Translations under genes and position numbers: made by a program | Notes under the pieces: generated by a model | The model's input: the letters and a program-made list of their open reading frames with translations, nothing else | The model's database searches: none | What the model was told of the DNA's origin: nothing | Assembly (NCBI GenBank): GCA_012030815.1 | Contig: JAAUVF010000052.1 | Coordinates: 1-6,629 of the forward strand | Source of the DNA: Nanobdellota archaeon | GTDB lineage: Archaea; Thermoproteota; Nitrososphaeria; Nitrososphaerales; Nitrosopumilaceae | Reading direction: 5' to 3' | DNA: 6,629 nt | Shown here: positions 1-6,629 of the stretch, one piece after another | How the letters are laid out: each line of letters begins with the position of its first letter | Numbering within the stretch: position 1 is the stretch's first letter

Positions 1-913
1 GTACACAGCACAACGTAATTTGTATCCATCTGAATCAATAGAGAAAAAAACATGACCTCCTTTTACAATTTTTGGTTCATCAGATACAATACCAATAATT
101 TTTCCTGAAGCGTATGGTTTAATGTTTTTAGGATTTAGTTGATTTTTTAAATGATCACCTGTACCTTGATTTGATTTGAATATCATATGACCGGATAATT
201 TTTCACTTGTTTTCAAAATTTTAGTTGCACGAAGTAGTGAATCAACATTTTCACCACGTACACCATAAAAAACGGGATCAGGACCATGTGGGGTGATTAA
301 CACTCGGTTTTTTTTATTATCAAAGCTGTTAAATGTAATGGTAATGTTTTATCTTGCATTGTTTTTACACTTTTGGCAGAAAGTTTTCTTTCTTTTCCAA
401 ATTTAGAATTTTTTCTATAACTTAATAGCTCCAACGTATGATCATTAAAATCATAACCAATTGCACCTATTGCACCTACAAGACCTTGACCATTTCCCTG
501 ATAGAAAAATTCAATATTATTATTTCTAGCAAATGTTTTTGCATGATTTCTGTTTATCAATTGCCATAAAGCTAATTTACTGAATTTGGAAAATTGATCT
601 GGGATTTCTTTATTTTCATAAAAAACTAAACCAGGATTTGCTCCATTTTTGATATCAGAGTATTTTTCAACAATCTTTTTGATCTGATTTTTAATTTTTG
701 ATGGATTTTTTGTTCTTATTTTCATAGAAACAGCTCCATTTCCTCGTGTTTTCCAAGGAATGTTTGGATTAAATCTGATTAACTTGGGAAAATCAAGAAA
801 TTCAGTGTCTTGTTTTTTAATAAATCAACAATTTTGTAAGCAAGAAATGTGGTGCACATTCCTTTTGGAGAATCTGTATCATCAAAACCAATATTGAGTA
901 TGGTATCAACCAT
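1..913 (-). CDS. tiaS: tRNA(Ile2) 2-agmatinylcytidine synthetase TiaS, 3' end outside window, two frame breaks
   Basis: TiaS attaches agmatine to C2 of the wobble cytidine (C34) of archaeal tRNA-Ile2 using ATP, so that the CAU anticodon reads AUA instead of AUG. Starting at the ATG at 913 the protein opens with the phosphate-handling motif GFDDTDSPKGMCTT (about residues 9-22), typical of the TiaS catalytic domain. Then come a Gly-rich GNGQGLVGAIGAIG segment (about 140-153), HGPDPVFYG, and a region like the family's OB-fold (SNQGTGDHL). About 305 residues are present; the family has roughly 420, so the C-terminal zinc-ribbon part lies beyond position 1. Two frame breaks interrupt it: one base is missing in the T run 813-818 and one in the T run 308-315 (plus-strand letters). 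With one base added to each, the frame is continuous and all motifs fall in order. It is divergent from dph2, another archaeal translation-modification gene. Family assignment is by motif recognition. Confidence 0.9.
308..315. other. frame break in tiaS (8-base A/T run, one base short)
   Basis: Reading tiaS on the minus strand, the frame runs into a stop at 297-299 just after this run of eight. One extra base converts the tail into a continuous frame reading KKNRVLITPHGPDPVFYG, the conserved TiaS continuation. A homopolymer length error is the simplest reading. Confidence 0.85.
813..818. other. frame break in tiaS (6-base A/T run, one base short)
   Basis: The DDTDSPKG-containing N-terminal frame and the frame of the main body join if one base is added to this run, giving LLKKQDTEFLDFPKLIRFNP. 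Without it the N-terminal frame ends a few codons later. Confidence 0.85.
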
Positions 914-964
914 AAACAAATTATATAATTTCAGACATTTTTAGTTGTTGTATGACACAGTTGA

Positions 965-977
965 TTTAAATTAATAA
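965..977 (+). promoter_or_regulatory. probable TATA box for dph2
   Basis: The TTTAAATTAATAA stretch is centred about 26-27 bp before the TTG at 998, the spacing expected if transcription begins at or beside the start codon (leaderless mRNA). A second TATA-like sequence, TTATATAATT at 921-930, lies in the same 84-bp divergent spacer. It fits neither start at that spacing, though it could serve a longer dph2 leader. For tiaS (start 913) the only match at the right distance is a weak TAAAAAT on the minus strand (937-943). Confidence 0.4.
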
Positions 978-997
978 CACCATATTTTTAGCTGGAA

Positions 998-1991
998 TTG
1001 ATAGTAATAGATGAAGAGCGAATCTTCAAAGAAATTGAAACCAAGAACCCAGCATCAGTGTCCCTGAATGGTCCAGATGGAATACTGCCACAGGTACAAG
1101 AAACTGCTATGAATATTACCAAAAGATTTGGAATTCCTGCTTATGTATTAGCTGATACCACTTGGGGAACATGTGATCTTAATTCAAATGGATCTAAAGT
1201 ATTAGGAGCAGAAATTCAATTCAATATAGGACATACAATAAACACAGAATCAATTGAAAAAATCTGATTCTGATTAATGCTTATGATGATGTTGATTTTG
1301 ACAGTGTTGCAAAAAATGTGTCAATATTCTCAAAGGAAAAAAAATATCACTAGTTACAGACAGTCAGCATTTACATCAGATGGATAAAGTAAATGAAATT
1401 TTGACTAATGGTGGAATACAAGTAAAAATTGGTAAAGGAAAAGGACAGTTAAATGATGGACAAGTATTTGGTTGTGAATTTTATCCAGCTACAGAACTTA
1501 AAGACAAAGTTGATGCATATGTATTCTTAGGACAAAGTAATTTTCATGCAGCAGGAATTGCTCTATCAACTAACAAGCCAACTTATGTTTTAGATCCATA
1601 TTTTAACGAAGTACGTGAAGTTACAGAATTTGCTCAGAAACTAAAAAAGAAAGCCACACTTGCAATTTACAAAGCAGCCGATGCTCAATCATTTGGAATA
1701 ATCATAGGACTAAAAGAAGGACAACTATCCAAAGTATTTGCGTTAAAATTTAAAAAAGAATTAGAAAAAGAAGGAAAAACAGTTCAGTTATTTGCATTAA
1801 CTGATATCACAAATGAGAGGCATAAAAATCTAAAAGGAATTGATGCATTTATTCAAGTGGCTTGTCCTAGAATCTCTACAGATAATCAATTTGATAAGCC
1901 TGTTTTATCCACACCACAAGCAAATGCACTTTTAAAAATATTAAGACATGAAAGCATTGAAGGATATCTAGAAATCCCTCACTGGCTTTAA
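998..1991 (+). CDS. dph2: diphthamide synthase Dph2 (SAM-dependent, iron-sulfur), two frame breaks
   Basis: Archaeal Dph2 carries out the first step of diphthamide formation on elongation factor 2. It cleaves SAM to a 3-amino-3-carboxypropyl radical and adds this to C2 of the target histidine. Reconstructed length is 331 residues, normal for the archaeal homodimeric enzyme. The three cysteines that ligate the 4Fe-4S cluster are visible: Cys59 in WGTCDL, about Cys160 in VFGCEF and about Cys290 in QVACPRI. Their spacing matches the Pyrococcus enzyme as I remember it (59/163/287). NGPDGILPQVQE near the N-terminus and the LGQSNFHAAG segment also fit. The start is TTG at 998, with no in-frame ATG nearby; an in-frame stop sits at 989 and CTG at 992 is the alternative. 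Two frame breaks (runs 1257-1262 and 1311-1316, each one A short) split it; the fragment 1380-1991 is not a separate gene. Confidence 0.92.
1257..1262. other. frame break in dph2 (6-A run, one base short)
   Basis: As written the frame stops at TGA right after this run. One more A gives SIEKNLILINAYDDVDFDSV, which continues the protein. Confidence 0.85.
1311..1316. other. frame break in dph2 (6-A run, one base short)
   Basis: One more A gives VAKKCVNILKGKKISLVTDS, joining in frame to the rest of Dph2 (HLHQMDKVNE). Without it the frame closes at a TAG some 35 bases later. Confidence 0.85.
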
Positions 1992-1993
1992 AA

Positions 1994-2594
1994 TTAAGAT
2001 ATTAGTTTTTGAAATTTTTTATTTTCAACTAATTTTTCAAAAGATTTGGTTTTTTTGCTTTGATTTTAAATTGAGTTCCTTGTAAAATTGCGTTTTCAAG
2101 TGTATCAAGTGCGTCATCAGCCCTAGAAAGCATTGCAAGATTGCATGATTTATCAAAAAGAACATCTCCATTATGAGGATAGTCTTCTAAAATTTTATCA
2201 CAACATAGAAGAGATTCTTCAAATTTTTTCATTGAGAATAGAATTCTTTCTTTATGATATAGAACAATGTTGTATTTTGAATTATTTTCCAAAATTTTAT
2301 TGCAGTATGTAAGCGCATCAATAAATTCACCTTTTTTTCGCATAGAGGATACTTTGTTTATTAAAACAGAAAGATCGTTAGAATCCAATTTTAATGCGTG
2401 ATCATAACATTGGATGGCTGCATCATAATTTTTTAATTTATTTAGAGCATATCCCTTGTTGTTAAGAGAAGCAATATGATTTGGATCATCATATAAAATT
2501 TTATCATATAGATAATCGCTTCTTGTAATTTTCCTTTTAAGAATAATCGATTTGCTTCATCAAGAAGAGAATCAATTTTTGGATTGCCAGTCAT
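1994..2594 (-). CDS. tetratricopeptide (TPR) repeat protein, two frame breaks
   Basis: Reconstructed as a 200-residue protein made almost wholly of five 34-residue TPR units, recognisable by repeats of a Tyr/Cys-Asp/Asn-Lys-Ile-Leu core (LYDKIL, YCNKIL, CCDKIL) followed by an Asn/Asp/Pro turn. It starts at the ATG at 2594 with MTGNPKIDSLLDEANRLFLK and ends with a Lys-rich tail FEKLVENKKFQKLIS. TPR arrays are protein-protein docking helices; no partner or catalytic role can be read from it. No signal peptide or membrane segment, so probably cytoplasmic. It lies 13 bp after the MDR reductase gene on the same strand, so probably cotranscribed. One base is missing near 2514-2515 (EAI/YLYDKIL junction) and one in the T run 2050-2056. 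Correcting the second moves the stop from 2029 to TAA at 1994-1996, two bases from the dph2 stop. Confidence 0.8.
2002..2037 (+). terminator. possible terminator hairpin after dph2
   Basis: TTAG plus a T run and GAAA (2002-2014) can pair with TTTCAACTAA (2023-2032), leaving a bulge of about three T, followed by TTTTT (2033-2037). It lies 10 bases past the dph2 stop, inside the reconstructed 3' end of the convergent TPR gene. Archaeal termination depends mainly on T-rich tracts, which are plentiful here on the plus strand. Confidence 0.35.
2050..2056. other. frame break in TPR gene (7-base A/T run, one base short)
   Basis: On the minus strand an extra A changes the tail from KAKKPNLLKN-stop to KAKKTKSFEKLVENKKFQ and on to a stop at 1994. 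The longer tail is more natural and brings the gene right up to the convergent dph2 stop. Less certain than the dph2 and tiaS breaks because C-terminal tails are not conserved. Confidence 0.65.
2513..2518. other. frame break in TPR gene (one base short, not in a long run)
   Basis: The first TPR helix (DEANRLFLKGKLQEAI) and the YLYDKILYDDPNHIASLNN continuation are in different frames. Adding one base near 2514-2515 completes a standard 34-residue unit. The exact missing base cannot be told from the sequence. Confidence 0.75.
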
Positions 2595-2607
2595 GATTGA
2601 TTTTACA

Positions 2608-3678
2608 TCATGGCTTCATTAAGATTTTTCCAAACAGTCCTTTACCAGTTAACATCTTAGTATGAGCTTCTACTGCTTGCTCTAATGAATAAACAGAATC
2701 TATTACAGATATTATTTTTCCCTGAGACATCCAGTATAGAGCCTGCTCTAATTCAGATCTAGTTCCCTGAGTTGAGCCTAAAATATTGATTCCTTTAAAG
2801 AAAACATGACGTAAATCCGTTTTAGCATCATAACCAGTTGTAGCTCCAGTTGTAACAATCGTTGCACCATACTTTAACAAAGTTAATTCCTTATTCCAAT
2901 GCGAGCCACCAATATGCTCAAAAATTACATCTACTCCAACAACATCACCAAATGGCTTTGGTATTTTTTTAGCAATTTCACGAACTTCCTTATACCAATC
3001 TTCTTTTCTATGATCTACTGCATAATCAGCTCCAAGTTCTAATAATTTATTTAATTTATCAGGACTGGCTGTTGCAATTACTGTACAGCCAAATAATTTA
3101 GCAATTTGAATTCCATAATTTCCAACACCTGAGCTTCCACCCATGATCAAAACTAATTGGCCGGGTTGAATTTTTGCTCTACTAACTAACATATGCCATG
3201 ATGTAAGTAGGGTCATAGAAGCTGCTGCTGCAGACTCGTATGTCACATTATCAGGAATTTTTACAACGTTGACTTCAGGCAAATGTGTAACTTCGCAATA
3301 TCCACCCCAAAGCGGACCAGTTTCAAATCCCCAAATTCTTCTCTTTCTGCAATCATATTCTCTTCCACTAGTACATAATGCACACACTCTACATGACATA
3401 TTTCCATGAGATACAACTCGATCTCCAACTTTGATATTTTTTACATCTTTACCTATTGCAATGACTTCTCCTGCTGCATCTGTACCTGATATGTGAGGTA
3501 GTGGCACAGCAAGAGGTTTTCCCCTCATTCCCCAGATATCATCATAATTCAAAGATGCACATTTTACTTTGAAAACAACTTCATCAGGTTTTGGAATAGG
3601 TTCAGGAATATCTTTGATTTTTAAAATCTTAGAAAAATCATCGTCTGTAGTATAGTTATCATAAACAAGAGCTTTCAT
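2608..3678 (-). CDS. MDR-family reductase, probable acrylyl-CoA reductase (enoyl-CoA reductase/carboxylase-like)
   Basis: A 356-residue medium-chain dehydrogenase/reductase with no frame break. The N-terminal GroES-like half has a complete structural-zinc lobe (Cys96, 99, 102, 110). The catalytic-zinc ligands of classic alcohol dehydrogenases are absent: CASLNYDDIW and HISGTDAAG replace the usual Cys and Gly-His-Glu. The Rossmann half has GGSSGVG (180-186) and TASPDK after the second strand, suggesting NADPH. RIWGFETG (114-121), DVIFEH (250-255) and TTGATTGYD closely resemble crotonyl-CoA carboxylase/reductase, so the substrate is probably an enoyl-CoA. In Thaumarchaea the best-fitting role is acryloyl-CoA to propionyl-CoA in the 3-hydroxypropionate/4-hydroxybutyrate cycle (inference). 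The start is the ATG at 3678, 26 bp from a TATA-like box; a 28-codon upstream extension would run through the divergent promoters into csl4. Alternative: a quinone-reductase-like enzyme of unknown substrate. Confidence 0.85.
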   Translation of the reverse strand: MKALVYDNYTTDDDFSKILKIKDIPEPIPKPDEVVFKVKCASLNYDDIWGMRGKPLAVPLPHISGTDAAGEVIAIGKDVKNIKVGDRVVSHGNMSCRVCALCTSGREYDCRKRRIWGFETGPLWGGYCEVTHLPEVNVVKIPDNVTYESAAAASMTLLTSWHMLVSRAKIQPGQLVLIMGGSSGVGNYGIQIAKLFGCTVIATASPDKLNKLLELGADYAVDHRKEDWYKEVREIAKKIPKPFGDVVGVDVIFEHIGGSHWNKELTLLKYGATIVTTGATTGYDAKTDLRHVFFKGINILGSTQGTRSELEQALYWMSQGKIISVIDSVYSLEQAVEAHTKMLTGKGLFGKILMKP

Positions 3679-3700
3679 GATTATTGGATATTTATTCGAG

Positions 3701-3708
3701 ATATATGA
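3701..3708 (-). promoter_or_regulatory. probable TATA box for the MDR reductase operon
   Basis: ATATATGA on the plus strand (TCATATAT on the minus strand) is centred about 26 bp upstream of the ATG at 3678. This implies a leaderless transcript covering the reductase and the TPR gene. Confidence 0.5.
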
Positions 3709-3733
3709 TTTGTTAGGCTCAAACCACAAACAA

Positions 3734-3740
3734 TTATAAT
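3734..3740 (+). promoter_or_regulatory. probable TATA box for the csl4-pheA operon
   Basis: TTATAAT is centred about 24 bp upstream of the csl4 ATG at 3761, again fitting a leaderless start. It lies in the same 82-bp divergent spacer as the reductase promoter; the two boxes are about 33 bp apart and face away from each other. Confidence 0.5.
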
Positions 3741-3760
3741 CATAGCTCCAAAAATATAGC

Positions 3761-4310
3761 ATGTCTGAAATTGCTGCACTTCCTGGAGATAAAATAGCAT
3801 CTATTGAAGAGTATGAAACTGGTTACAATACTTTTGATGATGGAGATATGGTTCGTGCATCAACTGTAGGTAAGACAGAGTTAGATAAAGAATCAAGAGT
3901 TGCAAACATAAAACATCCAAAGATGATATCAATTCCCAAAGTAGGAGATATCATAATAGGAACTGTAGCAGCTGTGATGTCTTCAATGATAGCAGTCTCA
4001 ATTGATTACATTAATGGTAAGCCAACAACTTCTAAAGTTGAATGTATTTGTTCAACAAGAAATCTTAGAAAAAAGAATGTTGCTCTGGTAAACGATATTG
4101 TCACACTAAAAATTTTAAATCATCTAAATGGTACAATTCATGCAGCGATTGAAGAACCACATTTAGGAGTATTATTTACAAAATGCAGAAAATGTGGTAA
4201 AAGTAGTTCAGATGCGCGATGCCATAAAGTGTACAGAATGTTCCTGGATTGATGAGAGAAAACTTTCATCAAATTATGGCAATAGTGATTTCGTAAAGCT
4301 GAGAGAGTAA
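3761..4310 (+). CDS. csl4: exosome RNA-binding subunit Csl4, one frame break
   Basis: Csl4 caps the archaeal exosome (the Rrp41/Rrp42 ring), binds RNA substrates and in archaea helps recruit DnaG. The N-terminal domain shows PGDKIASIEEYETGYNTFDD (8-27), close to the usual PGD...EE...G.gTy.ddG pattern. An S1 domain begins near VGDIIIGTVAAV (61-72), and a C-terminal zinc ribbon begins with Cys142-x2-Cys145. As written, the frame ends at 4252 without the second cysteine pair. Removing one base between about 4203 and 4212 gives MRDAIKCTECSWIDERKLSS, restoring Cys157-x2-Cys160 and running to TAA at 4308-4310 (182 residues). It is divergent from the reductase and is followed after 3 bp by pheA, so the two are cotranscribed. 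No Shine-Dalgarno sequence precedes the ATG, in keeping with a leaderless message. Confidence 0.88.
4203..4212. other. frame break in csl4 (one extra base)
   Basis: This break has the opposite sign to the homopolymer deletions: one base too many. A spare T at 4207-4208 is one possibility, since dropping it gives GKSSQMRDAIKCTEC with a complete zinc ribbon. An extra A in 4222-4224 would also rejoin the frames and give RCHKCTEC. Confidence 0.7.
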
Positions 4311-4313
4311 GAA

Positions 4314-5128
4314 ATGACAAGTGTTTCGTTCCAAGGTGAACGAGGGGCATATAGCGAAGCAGCAGCTAAAGCATTTTTCAATAAAGAAATTAAAGCAGTT
4401 CCTCTTTCAACCTTTGCAAAAGTTTTAGAAAATACAACACTAGACAAGTCAGAATATTCTATTTTGCCAGTAGAAAATTCTCTGGAAGGTAGTATTGGAG
4501 AAAGTTATGATTTATTGTATTCGACATCACTTAATGCCATAGGTGAAATCTATCATAGAATTGAACATTGTCTGATAGGAAATGGTTCATTAGAAGAGAT
4601 AGATACAGTATATTCTCATCCACAAGCACTTGGACAATGTAGAAACTTTATAGAAAAACACAACATGAAAACAGTTCCTACGTATGATACTGCAGGAAGT
4701 GTAAAGATCATCAAAGAGTTAGACAAAAAAACATAGCATGTATTGCTAGCAAAGATGCATCTCAAATTTACAATATGCCTGTAATAGCAGAAAACATTGC
4801 CAATAATTTGAATAATTATACAAGATTTTTGATATTATCAAAAAGTAGCAAAGAAGAAACTGGGAAAGATAAGACATCAATAATTTTTTCAATAAAACAT
4901 GAACCTGGATCTCTGCATAGAATAATAGAAAAATTTTACAACTATAATGTCAATTTAACTAAAATTGAATCAAGACCAACTAAGACAAATACATGGGAAT
5001 ATAATTTCTACGTAGATTTTGAAGGTCATGCAAAAAATCCAAAGATTGTAGAAATACTAGAGAAAATTAATCACGAAACATTGTTCATGAAAATACTGGG
5101 ATCTTATCCCTCTGCAAAACTAAACTAG
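4314..5128 (+). CDS. pheA: prephenate dehydratase with ACT domain, one frame break
   Basis: Converts prephenate to phenylpyruvate, the last step before transamination to phenylalanine. Reconstructed length is 271 residues, standard for a stand-alone enzyme. The dehydratase domain (1-175) starts with VSFQGERGAYSEAAA and contains PVENSLEGSIGE (52-63), YSHPQALGQC (100-109), YDTAGSVK (124-131, with the expected catalytic Thr126) and the closing NNYTRFLIL (167-175). The ACT domain (about 188-270) holds EPGSLHRIIEKF and the ESRP motif (219-222) that takes part in phenylalanine feedback binding, so the enzyme is probably inhibited by its end product. There is no chorismate mutase or dehydrogenase fusion. 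One A is missing in the run 4725-4731; with it, KELDKKNIACIASKDASQ continues in frame. It sits 3 bp after csl4, with GAGAGAG before the ATG as a weak ribosome-binding candidate. Confidence 0.93.
4725..4731. other. frame break in pheA (7-A run, one base short)
   Basis: As written the dehydratase domain ends at TAG just after this run and the ACT domain resumes in another frame. One more A joins them as DKKNIACIASKDASQIYNMP. Confidence 0.88.
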
Positions 5129-5593
5129 AATCCTTTTGGCTTTCTCAAAGTAAAGCCCATACTAAATCCAATGATCACCATTCCAGAAGTAATGACGATA
5201 ATGTGATATGTGAATAAGATAGGATCTACAGTTACTTGTAGTGTTGCTTCTACGTTTAATTCAGAGGAACCTGTATTTTGAAGATGTATGATAGTAACAC
5301 CGTCTTCCAGATGAACCCAGTCTAAAGTAACTTCTTTAGAATGAGTAGTTTTTGGGATCTGAAGACCCAAACCAGGGCTTGATAATGAAATATCAAACTT
5401 TTCTCCAGTGATCTTCATATGTTGTTTCGCATGATTACTTGCAGTTATTTGATATGAAGTTAGTTTCACCTACTGCAAATGTTTCATTAACCTGAATTGT
5501 TTTTAATCCAATATCAGAAATTAAAGAATAAATTCCAATTCCAATAATAGCACTTCCTACAATAATTCCAATTATGGTTCGTTTAGATAACAC
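5125..5593 (-). CDS. small protein with two membrane segments around an exported domain, one frame break
   Basis: I do not recognise a named family. Reconstructed as 155 residues from a GTG at 5593. It has a basic start (LSKR), a hydrophobic segment IIGIIVGSAIIGIGIYSLI (about 7-25), and then about 100 residues of short polar beta-like stretches. A second hydrophobic segment, YHIIVITSGMVIIGFSMGF, and a basic tail RKPKGF follow. By the positive-inside rule both ends are cytoplasmic and the middle domain is outside. GTG at 5593 is chosen because TTTTTTAAAC on the minus strand lies about 26 bp upstream and the hydrophobic segment would be lost with later starts. The region before and after 5460 is in two frames; dropping one base of the TT at 5460-5461 gives FAVGETTSYQITASNHAK. 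Its stop (minus TAG, 5125-5127) overlaps the pheA stop. Role unknown; possibly a cell-envelope or quality-control component. Confidence 0.7.
5460..5461. other. frame break in the membrane-protein gene (one extra base or two missing)
   Basis: The frame carrying the first membrane segment ends in QVNETFAVGETN... and the frame carrying the rest begins ...KLTSYQITASNHAKQHM. Removing one base here fuses them smoothly. Without the repair each half would have only one membrane segment. Confidence 0.65.
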
Positions 5594-5615
5594 AAAAGAA
5601 TGATTTGAAATGCTG

Positions 5616-5621
5616 TTTAAA
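5616..5621 (-). promoter_or_regulatory. probable TATA box for the membrane-protein gene
   Basis: TTTAAA within TTTTTTAAAC (minus strand) is centred about 26 bp upstream of the GTG at 5593, fitting a leaderless start and supporting the chosen codon. Confidence 0.4.
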
Positions 5622-5678
5622 AAATTACCGGAAAAAAGGTTCGATATTTAGCATGCCACAAATTGAAAGGTATGGACA

Positions 5679-5684
5679 TATAAT
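5679..5684 (+). promoter_or_regulatory. probable TATA box for the 5704-6185 transcript
   Basis: TATAAT within ACATATAATTTTT predicts a transcription start near 5704-5708. The message would then either begin at the ATG of the small ORF or carry a leader of about 180 bases before the secreted-protein gene. Confidence 0.45.
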
Positions 5685-5703
5685 TTTTGATTGTATGTAA
5701 ATC

Positions 5704-5892
5704 ATGCAAACTGCAACCCAGTACAAAACCGTCATAGAGCCATACATGTCATCAACTCTAGTTAGAAGAGAGACTAAACACACTCTTCTAACTAGAGAAG
5801 AAGTTCATCCAGACTTGATGGGGTTATCATGTCTTGTTATGGATGAATGTTTTGTAGATTATACTTATCATAATAAGAGGAGGTGTACTTGA
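5704..5892 (+). CDS. doubtful small ORF (62 codons) or structured leader of the secreted-protein gene
   Basis: An open frame from ATG 5704 to TGA 5890-5892 with no recognisable family; ATG 5746 is an alternative start. For it being real: a TATA-like box at a leaderless distance, and a TTGA overlap with the start codon of the next gene, as in translationally coupled pairs. Against: codon use differs from the neighbours (more C/G-ending codons; 26 of 60 bases at 5711-5770 are G or C by my count), and two long inverted repeats lie inside it, a pattern more like selected RNA structure. The predicted product is hydrophilic, with Arg/Lys and Glu runs (LVRRETKH, LLTREEVH) and three cysteines. I rate a leader RNA, with or without a leader peptide, as more likely than an independent protein gene. 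Confidence 0.35.
   Translation: MQTATQYKTVIEPYMSSTLVRRETKHTLLTREEVHPDLMGLSCLVMDECFVDYTYHNKRRCT
5756..5797 (+). repeat. perfect 15-bp inverted repeat (strong hairpin)
   Basis: CTCTAGTTAGAAGAG (5756-5770) is the exact reverse complement of CTCTTCTAACTAGAG (5783-5797), separated by 12 bases. As RNA it gives an uninterrupted 15-bp stem. It is not followed by a T tract, so it does not look like a terminator, and no similar sequence occurs elsewhere in the window. Confidence 0.9.
5804..5847 (+). repeat. second compound hairpin next to the first
   Basis: TTCATCCA (5804-5811) pairs perfectly with TGGATGAA (5840-5847). Inside it GAC (5812-5814) pairs with GTC (5831-5833) and TGAT (5816-5819) with ATCA (5826-5829), with one T-T mismatch, a six-base loop GGGGTT and a six-base bulge 5834-5839. 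Only six bases separate this from the first hairpin. Confidence 0.7.
5879..5885 (+). promoter_or_regulatory. strong Shine-Dalgarno sequence
   Basis: GGAGGTG matches the 3' end of 16S rRNA. The core GGAGG ends 5 bases before TTG 5889, a normal spacing; the ATG at 5898 would be 14 bases away. The other genes in the window lack such a site, so the secreted-protein message is translated from a leader rather than leaderless. Confidence 0.75.
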
Positions 5893-6185
5893 AAAGAATG
5901 AAAACAATTTTAGGAATATCCTTAATGGCAATATTGGCAACAGGATTAAGTGCTACAGCATTACAAGATGCATATGCTTACCCAGTCAAAGCAGATAATT
6001 CTGAAAAATTAAAACCAAAATCATTTGGTATAAAGATAAAGGATAAGATACCAGCTATAGATTCACAAAACACCAAACAAAATAATTTTGAAGGAATAAA
6101 ACATCAAGAAGTGAAAGACTATAAGAAAATTTTTGCAGAAGCATATGCAAAACAAGATCTCAAAAAACTTTACAAATTAGGATAG
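5889..6185 (+). CDS. small Lys-rich secreted protein, function unknown
   Basis: 98 residues from TTG 5889, chosen for its distance from the Shine-Dalgarno site and its TTGA overlap with the preceding small ORF; ATG 5898 is an alternative three codons later. The N-terminus is a classic Sec signal peptide: basic KRMK, hydrophobic ILGISLMAILATGLSATAL, and a probable cleavage after AYA in QDAYAYPV (about residue 30). The mature part, about 68 residues, is polar and Lys-rich (KLKPKSFGIKIKDKIP) with a C-terminal amphipathic helix-like stretch (YKKIFAEAYAKQDLKKLYKL). It has no cysteines or membrane segment, so it is expected to be released or held at the S-layer. No family recognised. The stop codon lies inside the stem of the following terminator-like hairpin. 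Confidence 0.75.
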   Translation: MKRMKTILGISLMAILATGLSATALQDAYAYPVKADNSEKLKPKSFGIKIKDKIPAIDSQNTKQNNFEGIKHQEVKDYKKIFAEAYAKQDLKKLYKLG

Positions 6186-6208
6186 TATTTTTTGTTTATC
6201 CTATTTTT
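6178..6208 (+). terminator. terminator-like hairpin and T tract after the secreted-protein gene
   Basis: TAGGATA (6178-6184) pairs with TATCCTA (6197-6203) around a 12-base T-rich loop, followed directly by TTTTT (6204-6208). T tracts in and after the loop fit archaeal termination. The stem includes the last sense codons and two bases of the stop codon. Confidence 0.6.
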
Positions 6209-6234
6209 AGTTTTTATATTAAATTCAGACTATG

Positions 6235-6250
6235 ATTTAAAATTTTAAAT
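6235..6250. repeat. 16-bp perfect AT palindrome
   Basis: ATTTAAAATTTTAAAT reads the same on both strands. In DNA this AT-rich it could be chance or a TATA-like element; no function can be assigned. Confidence 0.5.
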
Positions 6251-6268
6251 TCTATTATGTGTTGTTTT

Positions 6269-6333
6269 CTAGGCTCAATTAAATGGTAATAAATGGAATT
6301 TTTAAAAATTAACTACATCAAACTTGAGGCTAG
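6269..6333. repeat. near-perfect 10-bp inverted repeat enclosing a palindrome
   Basis: CTAGGCTCAA (6269-6278) and TTGAGGCTAG (6324-6333) pair at 9 of 10 positions around a 45-base AT-rich interior. That interior holds the 14-bp palindrome AATTTTTAAAAATT (6297-6310). It lies in the noncoding spacer before guaB; the palindrome could act as a TATA box on either strand. Confidence 0.5.
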
Positions 6334-6337
6334 AGTA

Positions 6338-6352
6338 AAAAAAGAAAAAGTT
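6338..6352 (-). terminator. T-rich tract, possible terminator of guaB (minus strand)
   Basis: On the minus strand this reads AACTTTTTCTTTTTTT, about 115 bases past the guaB stop. Two T runs of this kind are the usual archaeal termination signal. If used, the guaB message carries the GC-rich island 6353-6430 in its 3' untranslated region. Confidence 0.35.
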
Positions 6353-6430
6353 ATGGAGTGATATCCAAACATAGGTTGACGGGTGGACGGAATATGATTA
6401 GGTAAAGACCTACTCGTCTCTGAAATTCAT
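6353..6430 (+). ncRNA. candidate small RNA, possibly C/D-box type (strand uncertain)
   Basis: A GC-rich island (23 of 50 bases at 6371-6420 are G or C by my count) in otherwise very AT-rich noncoding DNA. Read on the plus strand, ATGGA (6353-6357) can pair with TTCAT (6426-6430). It encloses a C-box-like GTGATAT (6358-6364), a D'-like TTGA (6376-6379), a C'-like ATGATTA (6394-6400) and a D box CTGA (6420-6423). The boxes are imperfect and the D'-C' spacing is long. A competing fold has TAGGT/ACCTA (6399-6403, 6408-6412) stacked on GACGGG/CTCGTC (6378-6383, 6413-6418). On the minus strand it would be part of the guaB 3' end. Confidence 0.3.
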
Positions 6431-6464
6431 CTAACAATTTTACAATAATTGAATTTTAAAGTAT

Positions 6465-6629
6465 CTACATTAAAGAAACATCATGGGGCTGACTTTCAGC
6501 AAATCCAGCTCTTGACATTTTGATAAACTCTGCGTTTTCTTGCATTTGTGGAATTGTGTGTGCACCGCAATAGCTCAGACCAGAGCGAACACCGCCAGTT
6601 AATTGTTTTAAAATATCAGTAACGGTTCC
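6465..6629 (-). CDS. guaB: IMP dehydrogenase, C-terminal end only
   Basis: IMP dehydrogenase oxidises IMP to XMP with NAD+, the committed step of GMP synthesis. The 54 residues present form the C-terminal end: [17 protein letters not shown], then [14 protein letters not shown], then [12 protein letters not shown] and the stop TAG at 6465-6467. These match the family's closing segment (GGxRSgxxYxGaxti, then ESxxHDV), including the ES-HD part that forms the potassium and subunit contact in known structures. The catalytic cysteine loop and CBS domains lie beyond 6629. The frame is intact over this stretch. Confidence 0.93.

Follow-up and report, generated by a model that had tools for sequence, protein, structure and literature searches.

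A candidate translated leader with an in-frame hairpin before a secreted-protein gene of Nitrosopumilaceae

Ammonia-oxidizing archaea of this group are major ammonia oxidizers. In archaea, a leaderless start codon lies some 20–27 nt after the TATA box. Distal archaeal cistrons are described as commonly bearing Shine–Dalgarno sites (PMC7531240), and NTGA is reported to be by far the commonest spacing motif of coupled frames in bacteria and archaea, with RNA unfolding and scanning as the models of coupling (PMC12548453). Thaumarchaeal promoters active in sea water have been described (PMC5069720). Among the open-licence matches listed, as far as titles and the starts of abstracts go, there is little on post-transcriptional regulation in these archaea and nothing on the mini-ORF family described below.

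The mini-ORF, its promoter and its neighbours

The window (the whole stretch of DNA analysed, 6629 nt long) comes from a thaumarchaeal contig, with an alcohol dehydrogenase of at most 92% identity to Nitrosarchaeum genomes. Several genes within 1–5128 are split between frames, resembling a contig with indel errors; by likeness we take genes of this part to belong to prephenate dehydratase, diphthamide synthesis and tRNA modification. The features of the locus studied here are collected in Table 1.

Table 1. Features of the mini-ORF locus (window positions)
Feature	Position	Strand	Basis or remark
Upstream element AGCATGCCACAAAT	5650..5663	+	54 nt 5′ of mini-ORF start; conserved
TATA-like box TATAAT	5679..5684	+	Sequence; CAAATA-TTTTT block conserved in relatives
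Mini-ORF, 62 codons, probable leaderless	5704..5892	+	Open frame ATG 5704 to TGA 5890–5892; homologues
Hairpin, 5′ arm	5756..5770	+	15-bp stem, conserved
Hairpin, 3′ arm	5783..5797	+	15-bp stem, conserved
Second, compound hairpin	5803..5848	+	17 pairs, predicted fold; unconserved
Short CUUAU/AUAAG hairpin	5864..5877	+	Just 5′ of Shine–Dalgarno site
Shine–Dalgarno site GGAGGTG of second cistron	5879..5885	+	Within mini-ORF; sequence and conservation
Secreted-protein gene	5889..6185	+	TTG 5889–5891 (probable start) or ATG 5899

A first-pass annotation of this DNA had placed an untranslated, structured leader of raised GC between the TATA-like box and the Shine–Dalgarno site. The TATA-like box is present as described there. 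The GC content of the stretch is indeed higher (37.4% vs. 31.7%) but only mildly so, 61 of 645 windows of equal size being as high. The leader does not look untranslated: it is an open frame with homologues, which that reading had missed. The mini-ORF ATG begins 25 nt downstream of the TATA-like box, counted from the first base of the box, and the spacing between the two is conserved. Because this spacing fits, transcription is expected to start at or next to 5704, and translation most likely begins there without a leader. Three homologues of the peptide are found in the database (P0002–P0004, 71%–84% identity). AlphaFold2 gives no usable protein model (mean pLDDT 58.5, pTM 0.15).

The upstream element has the form (A/G)GCA(T/G)(A/G)CCACAAA in 10 of 10 leaders of the secreted gene and is possibly a contact site for a regulator or for TFB. 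In 12 genomes, the pattern GGCATRCCRCAAA has 33 matches against two for the reversed control, and a shorter promoter pattern occurs at −54 to −58 in 57 of the 90 collected members of the mini-ORF family. A GGCATRCC element also precedes the gene of a long secreted, S-layer-like protein and those of cysteine-rich, zinc-ribbon-like proteins (L148, L171, L172, L176), which suggests a wider regulon.

The product of the second gene is predicted from its N-terminus to be secreted; it has no Pfam match above the cut-off. A two-row profile of this protein matches in 19 of 250 Nitrosopumilaceae genomes, some matches being distant or partial. The 10 leaders compared are those of the window and of nine close loci (L085, identical to L053, and L086–L093), the remaining 13 loci of the secreted gene being the distant or partial matches outside this set. 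The mini-ORF is open in all 10; it starts with GTG in L088 and, in L093, stops upstream of the Shine–Dalgarno site. The GGAGGTG motif noted in the first pass is there, but it belongs to the second cistron. The mini-ORF stop overlaps the TTG (TTGA) five bases past GGAGG, and this TTGA is preserved in nine of the 10 leaders; the locus thus has the overlapping stop and start, with a Shine–Dalgarno site in the first frame, of a translationally coupled cistron pair.

When window positions 5435–6629 are compared with L053, L086, and L087, an inversion of the cassette of promoter, mini-ORF, and secreted gene against its neighbours is seen. The IMP dehydrogenase-like tail and the MLSKRT membrane gene both run opposite to the cassette in the window and L087 and both run in its direction in L053/L085; in L086, the IMP dehydrogenase-like tail runs in its direction. 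In blastn, the flank alone, without the cassette, is matched at the Nitrosarchaeum loci L002, L003, and L005–L007. The stretch 6186–6464, which separates the secreted gene from the IMP dehydrogenase-like tail, has no blastn match in 83 loci (E 1e-3), and no tRNA is found in it. The plasmid collection gives no match, and no relative is found in the genome contigs scanned with the 62-aa ORF or in the viral contigs scanned with A1. In L094 (genome G041), most of what lies between the promoter element and the part of the secreted gene coding for the C-terminus is absent, apparently through a natural deletion. More distant homologues of the secreted protein (L095–L100, L104) likewise stand behind short ORFs that have a similar promoter element, with no hairpin in these as far as read.

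Hairpin and peptide in the secreted-gene group

The perfect 15-bp hairpin reported in the first pass is confirmed. It is the only perfect stem of at least 11 bp (loop 3–20) in the window, and the longest in 60 dinucleotide shuffles has 12 bp; a chance origin is unlikely. The fold of 5704–5895 also beats 200 shuffles (z −3.98). The stem is in register in nine of 10 leaders, L088 keeping only an out-of-register 8-bp stem; L088 is therefore left out of the nine-leader stem counts, and it is also left out of the tree count below. In the nine, 95.6% of 135 cells are paired (41%–57% in slid registers) and seven of the 15 pairs are changed on both sides, a number reached by none of 500 shuffles. With L088 restored in a 10-leader recount, and with two further helices included, the stem is 91.3% paired and eight of 15 pairs are doubly changed. 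In this group, there are 13 G·U cells, no A·C, and six other mismatches; five of the 13 G·U cells fall at one outer pair, and some are inherited.

Between L089 and L090, synonymous third-base changes occur on both arms with the stem kept (GTT/CTA vs. GTC/CTG). Some paired changes replace a residue on each arm; between the window and L053, R to G goes with L to P. Mapped onto a tree of the downstream gene, in which four of seven inner branches have support below 60, the stem columns require no fewer than 24 changes of pair state along the branches. Thus, of the paired changes in relatives proposed as a check of both hairpins, those of the first are found, but the second is not conserved. The proposal of a cis-acting RNA element before the secreted protein keeps its support in the paired changes of the first stem and in the absence of an Rfam match, without the untranslated character given to it.

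The compound hairpin is present in the predicted fold as had been described. Its pairs are kept to 15/17 in the nearest relative (L087), 14/17 in L093, 9/17 in L092 and L088, 7/15 in L053 and L086, and 5/12 in L091; in L089 and L090, the region is mostly deleted and neither of the two remaining cells is paired. In the CUUAU/AUAAG hairpin, four of five pairs are nearly invariant and the fifth is unpaired in seven of 10 leaders, so that this hairpin carries little information on RNA selection. A possible long-range pairing of 5720–5725 with 5884–5889, over the Shine–Dalgarno site and the start, is complete in six leaders of 10 and broken or gapped in the other four, and is rich in G·U.

Rfam gives no match in 5704–5885, even at E up to 5; in the rest of the window, five weak matches fall below their gathering scores. 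The proposed riboswitch does not fit one covarying stem inside an ORF with no conserved multi-helix core, nor does the RNA thermometer fit a conserved stem that ends 81 nt 5′ of the Shine–Dalgarno site; the short stem 5864–5877 ends one base before that site. Among features of attenuators, no regulatory codon run is seen in the mini-ORF peptide. An integron attC-like site was considered and set aside, since the orientation of the core motifs does not fit.

Peptide constraint was estimated as pN/pS over three close pairs (window–L087, L053–L086, and L089–L090). For the mini-ORF body, taken as the codons outside the stem other than the last 11, the value is 0.93 (30 changes in 94 codons); it is 0.41 for the stem and 0.21 for the secreted gene. 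In the last 11 codons, there is no synonymous change in 18.5 sites. From this silence and the value for the body it follows that the nucleotides around the Shine–Dalgarno site are constrained, and the peptide, on these small numbers, hardly at all outside the stem and that site. The stem has no deficit of synonymous changes compared with the secreted gene (pS 0.197 vs. 0.191).

The wider mini-ORF family and its downstream genes

A covariance model of the stem has matches in 33 of 250 genomes of the Nitrosopumilaceae at E up to 0.1, many of them weak. The stronger extra hits are mostly other small ORFs, most of which precede other genes; in L113 and L121, the frames are interrupted. A profile of 21 peptides matches in 98 of the 250 genomes at E up to 0.01, with up to 17 matches per genome, and the mini-ORF family takes in 184 clusters of proteins matched at E up to 0.001. 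Of 400 genomes drawn from the class (a draw taken as a whole, inside and outside the Nitrosopumilaceae together), 45 match at 1e-4, and the family search had matched every one of these. A scan of 20 members against Pfam and NCBIfam (E up to 0.1) gives no match, and, where members are named among the matches listed, they are almost only hypothetical proteins.

The window peptide scores 79.6 bits against the family profile with its own row included and, once three rows from its group are removed, still 48.6 bits (E 3.4e-14 for 1000 sequences), and is thus a member. Against that reduced profile, L089, L090, and L093 are not significant (E 4.8, 0.53, and 0.012). Since L089 and L090 lie under the family threshold, eight of the 10 close leaders enter the family counts. 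In the wider family, pooled pN/pS is 0.31 (20 pairs) and a GLSWIF motif is conserved. With GLSWIF.DDD hypothetical proteins (for example of Nitrosopumilus ureiphilus and N. adriaticus), the window mini-ORF shares the profile match and a promoter element at equal distance; it differs from them in having GLSCLV, in its weaker constraint, and in a frame that enters the Shine–Dalgarno site of the next gene.

Members were found by four routes (secreted gene, hairpin model, promoter pattern, and peptide profile) with part of the matches taken, so that the frequency of the hairpin in the family is a biased estimate. A 12-codon block is ungapped in 69 of the 90 members, and therefore the stem partners stand in a fixed codon register; the other 21 members were left out of the register analysis. 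Nine with a PVKER/PVEER core (L142, L165, L193, L194, L198, L209, L210, L216, and L217) have only three to six Watson–Crick pairs in the stem register, and none of the nine has a gene of at least 80 aa starting within about 45 nt past the stop; they were left out of the synonymous null. In the 60 members used, 546 pairs form, against 399 ± 10.6 in synonymous recodings with codon usage pooled over whole ORFs, stems included (z 13.9, a value inflated by relatedness), and 29 of the 60 are individually at p <0.05. L163 has no stem in register and a perfect 10-bp stem elsewhere in the frame (at about ORF bases 70–97).

Family-wide, 79 cells are doubly changed, against 33.4 in shuffles (reached by none of 300) and 27–42 in slid registers; the 12 doubly changed pairs are reached by 10 of 300 shuffles and the number of pair types by 13 of 300. 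There are 51 different 8-nt arm combinations in the 69 members. G·U and A·C cells are nearly equal in the wider family (66 vs. 55; at inner pairs, 36 vs. 37), unlike what is seen in a stem selected as RNA.

The presence of the stem goes with the presence of a gene directly downstream. We call stem-bearing the members with at least nine of 12 stem pairs and count as downstream a gene of at least 80 aa starting at the stop or within about 45 nt past it. In the 88 members counted (two of less than 35 aa being excluded), such a gene follows 30 of 40 stem-bearing members and nine of the 48 others (p = 1.2e-7; kinship on a tree is ignored in this and the following tests); 10 of the 40 are without it. 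After dereplication at 75%, the proportions are 23/30 with and 6/26 without a stem (p = 1.3e-4); with the secreted-gene group removed, they are 23/33 and 8/46. In the 60 in-register members, with the PVKER/PVEER type excluded, they are 30/40 and 6/20 (p = 0.0017), and, in 57 members found independently of the secreted gene and the hairpin, 9/14 and 7/43 (p = 0.0012). The in-register count was chosen after the result of an earlier scan for perfect stems was known, and it supersedes that scan, which was blind to loops above 15 nt and depended on the cut-off: for six, seven, eight, and nine pairs, p was 0.32, 0.00066, 0.002, and 0.072 and, after dereplication, 0.78, 0.0021, 0.0085, and 0.23. The association points to a role of the stem in the expression of the second cistron.

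The downstream genes are varied, and many begin, judged by eye, with signal-peptide-like residues. Eight of them were scanned and none is above the Pfam cut-off, the weak matches including DUF6659 (21.4 bits, cut-off 27) and PD40 (19.3, cut-off 20.9). One gene, of about 140 aa (SKIEN..KDIYSVWK..DNFYSNIEKSIPQFHQA), is met repeatedly downstream: it follows L125, L143, L144, L204, and L220, and also L226, L228, L230, L231, and L233; the single copy scanned (L125) has no Pfam match.

Explanations and relation to known systems

We regard as probable that the locus is a translated leader, in which a leaderless mini-ORF whose codons also form a hairpin is coupled to the secreted-protein gene. The ribosome would start directly on the 5′ AUG at 5704, open the hairpin while passing through the mini-ORF, and terminate at the UGA overlapping the UUG start of the secreted gene; the Shine–Dalgarno site inside the mini-ORF would hold the terminating ribosome and allow re-initiation at TTGA. 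The hairpin would probably set ribosome traffic, leader folding, or stability, and with it the yield of the second protein. We infer the translation, the coupling, and the role of the hairpin from sequence comparison.

A serious rival is DNA template switching. The locus would then be an ordinary two-gene operon with an unselected hairpin, a palindrome that DNA replication maintains by copying one arm onto its partner. Hairpins with compensatory changes have been proposed to arise and persist in this way (PMC8794818). This explanation agrees with G·U being about as frequent as A·C in the wider family, with a synonymous rate that is not lowered in the stem, and with the peptide constraint of the wider family (pooled pN/pS 0.31, GLSWIF motif). 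Against it speak 13 G·U with no A·C in the secreted-gene group, the association of the stem with the downstream gene, and a peptide that, in this group, is under almost no constraint except in the stem and at the Shine–Dalgarno site; we hold it to be unlikely. The balance of G·U and A·C in the wider family would also suit a dyad acting at the level of DNA, the palindrome inside the mini-ORF being a protein binding site or a cruciform. Yet the arms vary in sequence and many are still paired (the 51 combinations in 69 members), as a sequence-specific site would not be, and the G·U bias in the group of the window is against it as well, which makes such a dyad improbable.

The untranslated cis-regulatory RNA, riboswitch, or thermometer of the first-pass annotation draws on the strong fold, the covarying stem without an Rfam match, and the possible long-range pairing over the Shine–Dalgarno site and start, complete in six of 10 leaders. 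Against it stand a frame open in 10 of 10 with homologous peptides, a single covarying stem in place of a conserved multi-helix core, and the G·U-rich state of that pairing, broken or gapped in the four other leaders. We consider this explanation very improbable, and an untranslated riboswitch or thermometer is rejected in view of the open frame and the single conserved stem.

If the translated-leader reading is extended to the wider family, the Nitrosopumilaceae may, more tentatively, possess a reusable cassette in which a GGCATRCC-type promoter element stands at a fixed distance from a leaderless mini-ORF that contains the hairpin. It would precede many genes unrelated to one another, several of which code for exported proteins, with the ribosome reading the hairpin and setting the expression of the next gene. 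Such a cassette, if real, would represent an undescribed class of translated RNA regulators in archaea. A multi-copy mini-ORF family that shares a promoter element and has hairpins in frame would constitute a genome-wide, directly testable regulatory layer, in which one stretch is read as both codons and structure.

In its structured 5′ region, the locus resembles riboswitches and RNA thermometers; it departs from both in that the structure lies inside an open frame, has no multi-stem core, and leaves the ribosome-binding site uncovered by the conserved stem. With bacterial leader peptides and uORFs (attenuators, or the uORF described for a Salmonella Mg2+ transporter; PMC8092293), it shares a short frame combined with RNA structure; unlike bacterial attenuators, it is archaeal and probably leaderless and shows no regulatory codon run. 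Like NTGA-coupled gene pairs, it has a TTGA overlap of stop and start and a Shine–Dalgarno site inside the first frame. It is unlike them in that the first of the two putatively coupled cistrons is a mini-ORF, probably leaderless, in which a hairpin is conserved while the peptide is little constrained.
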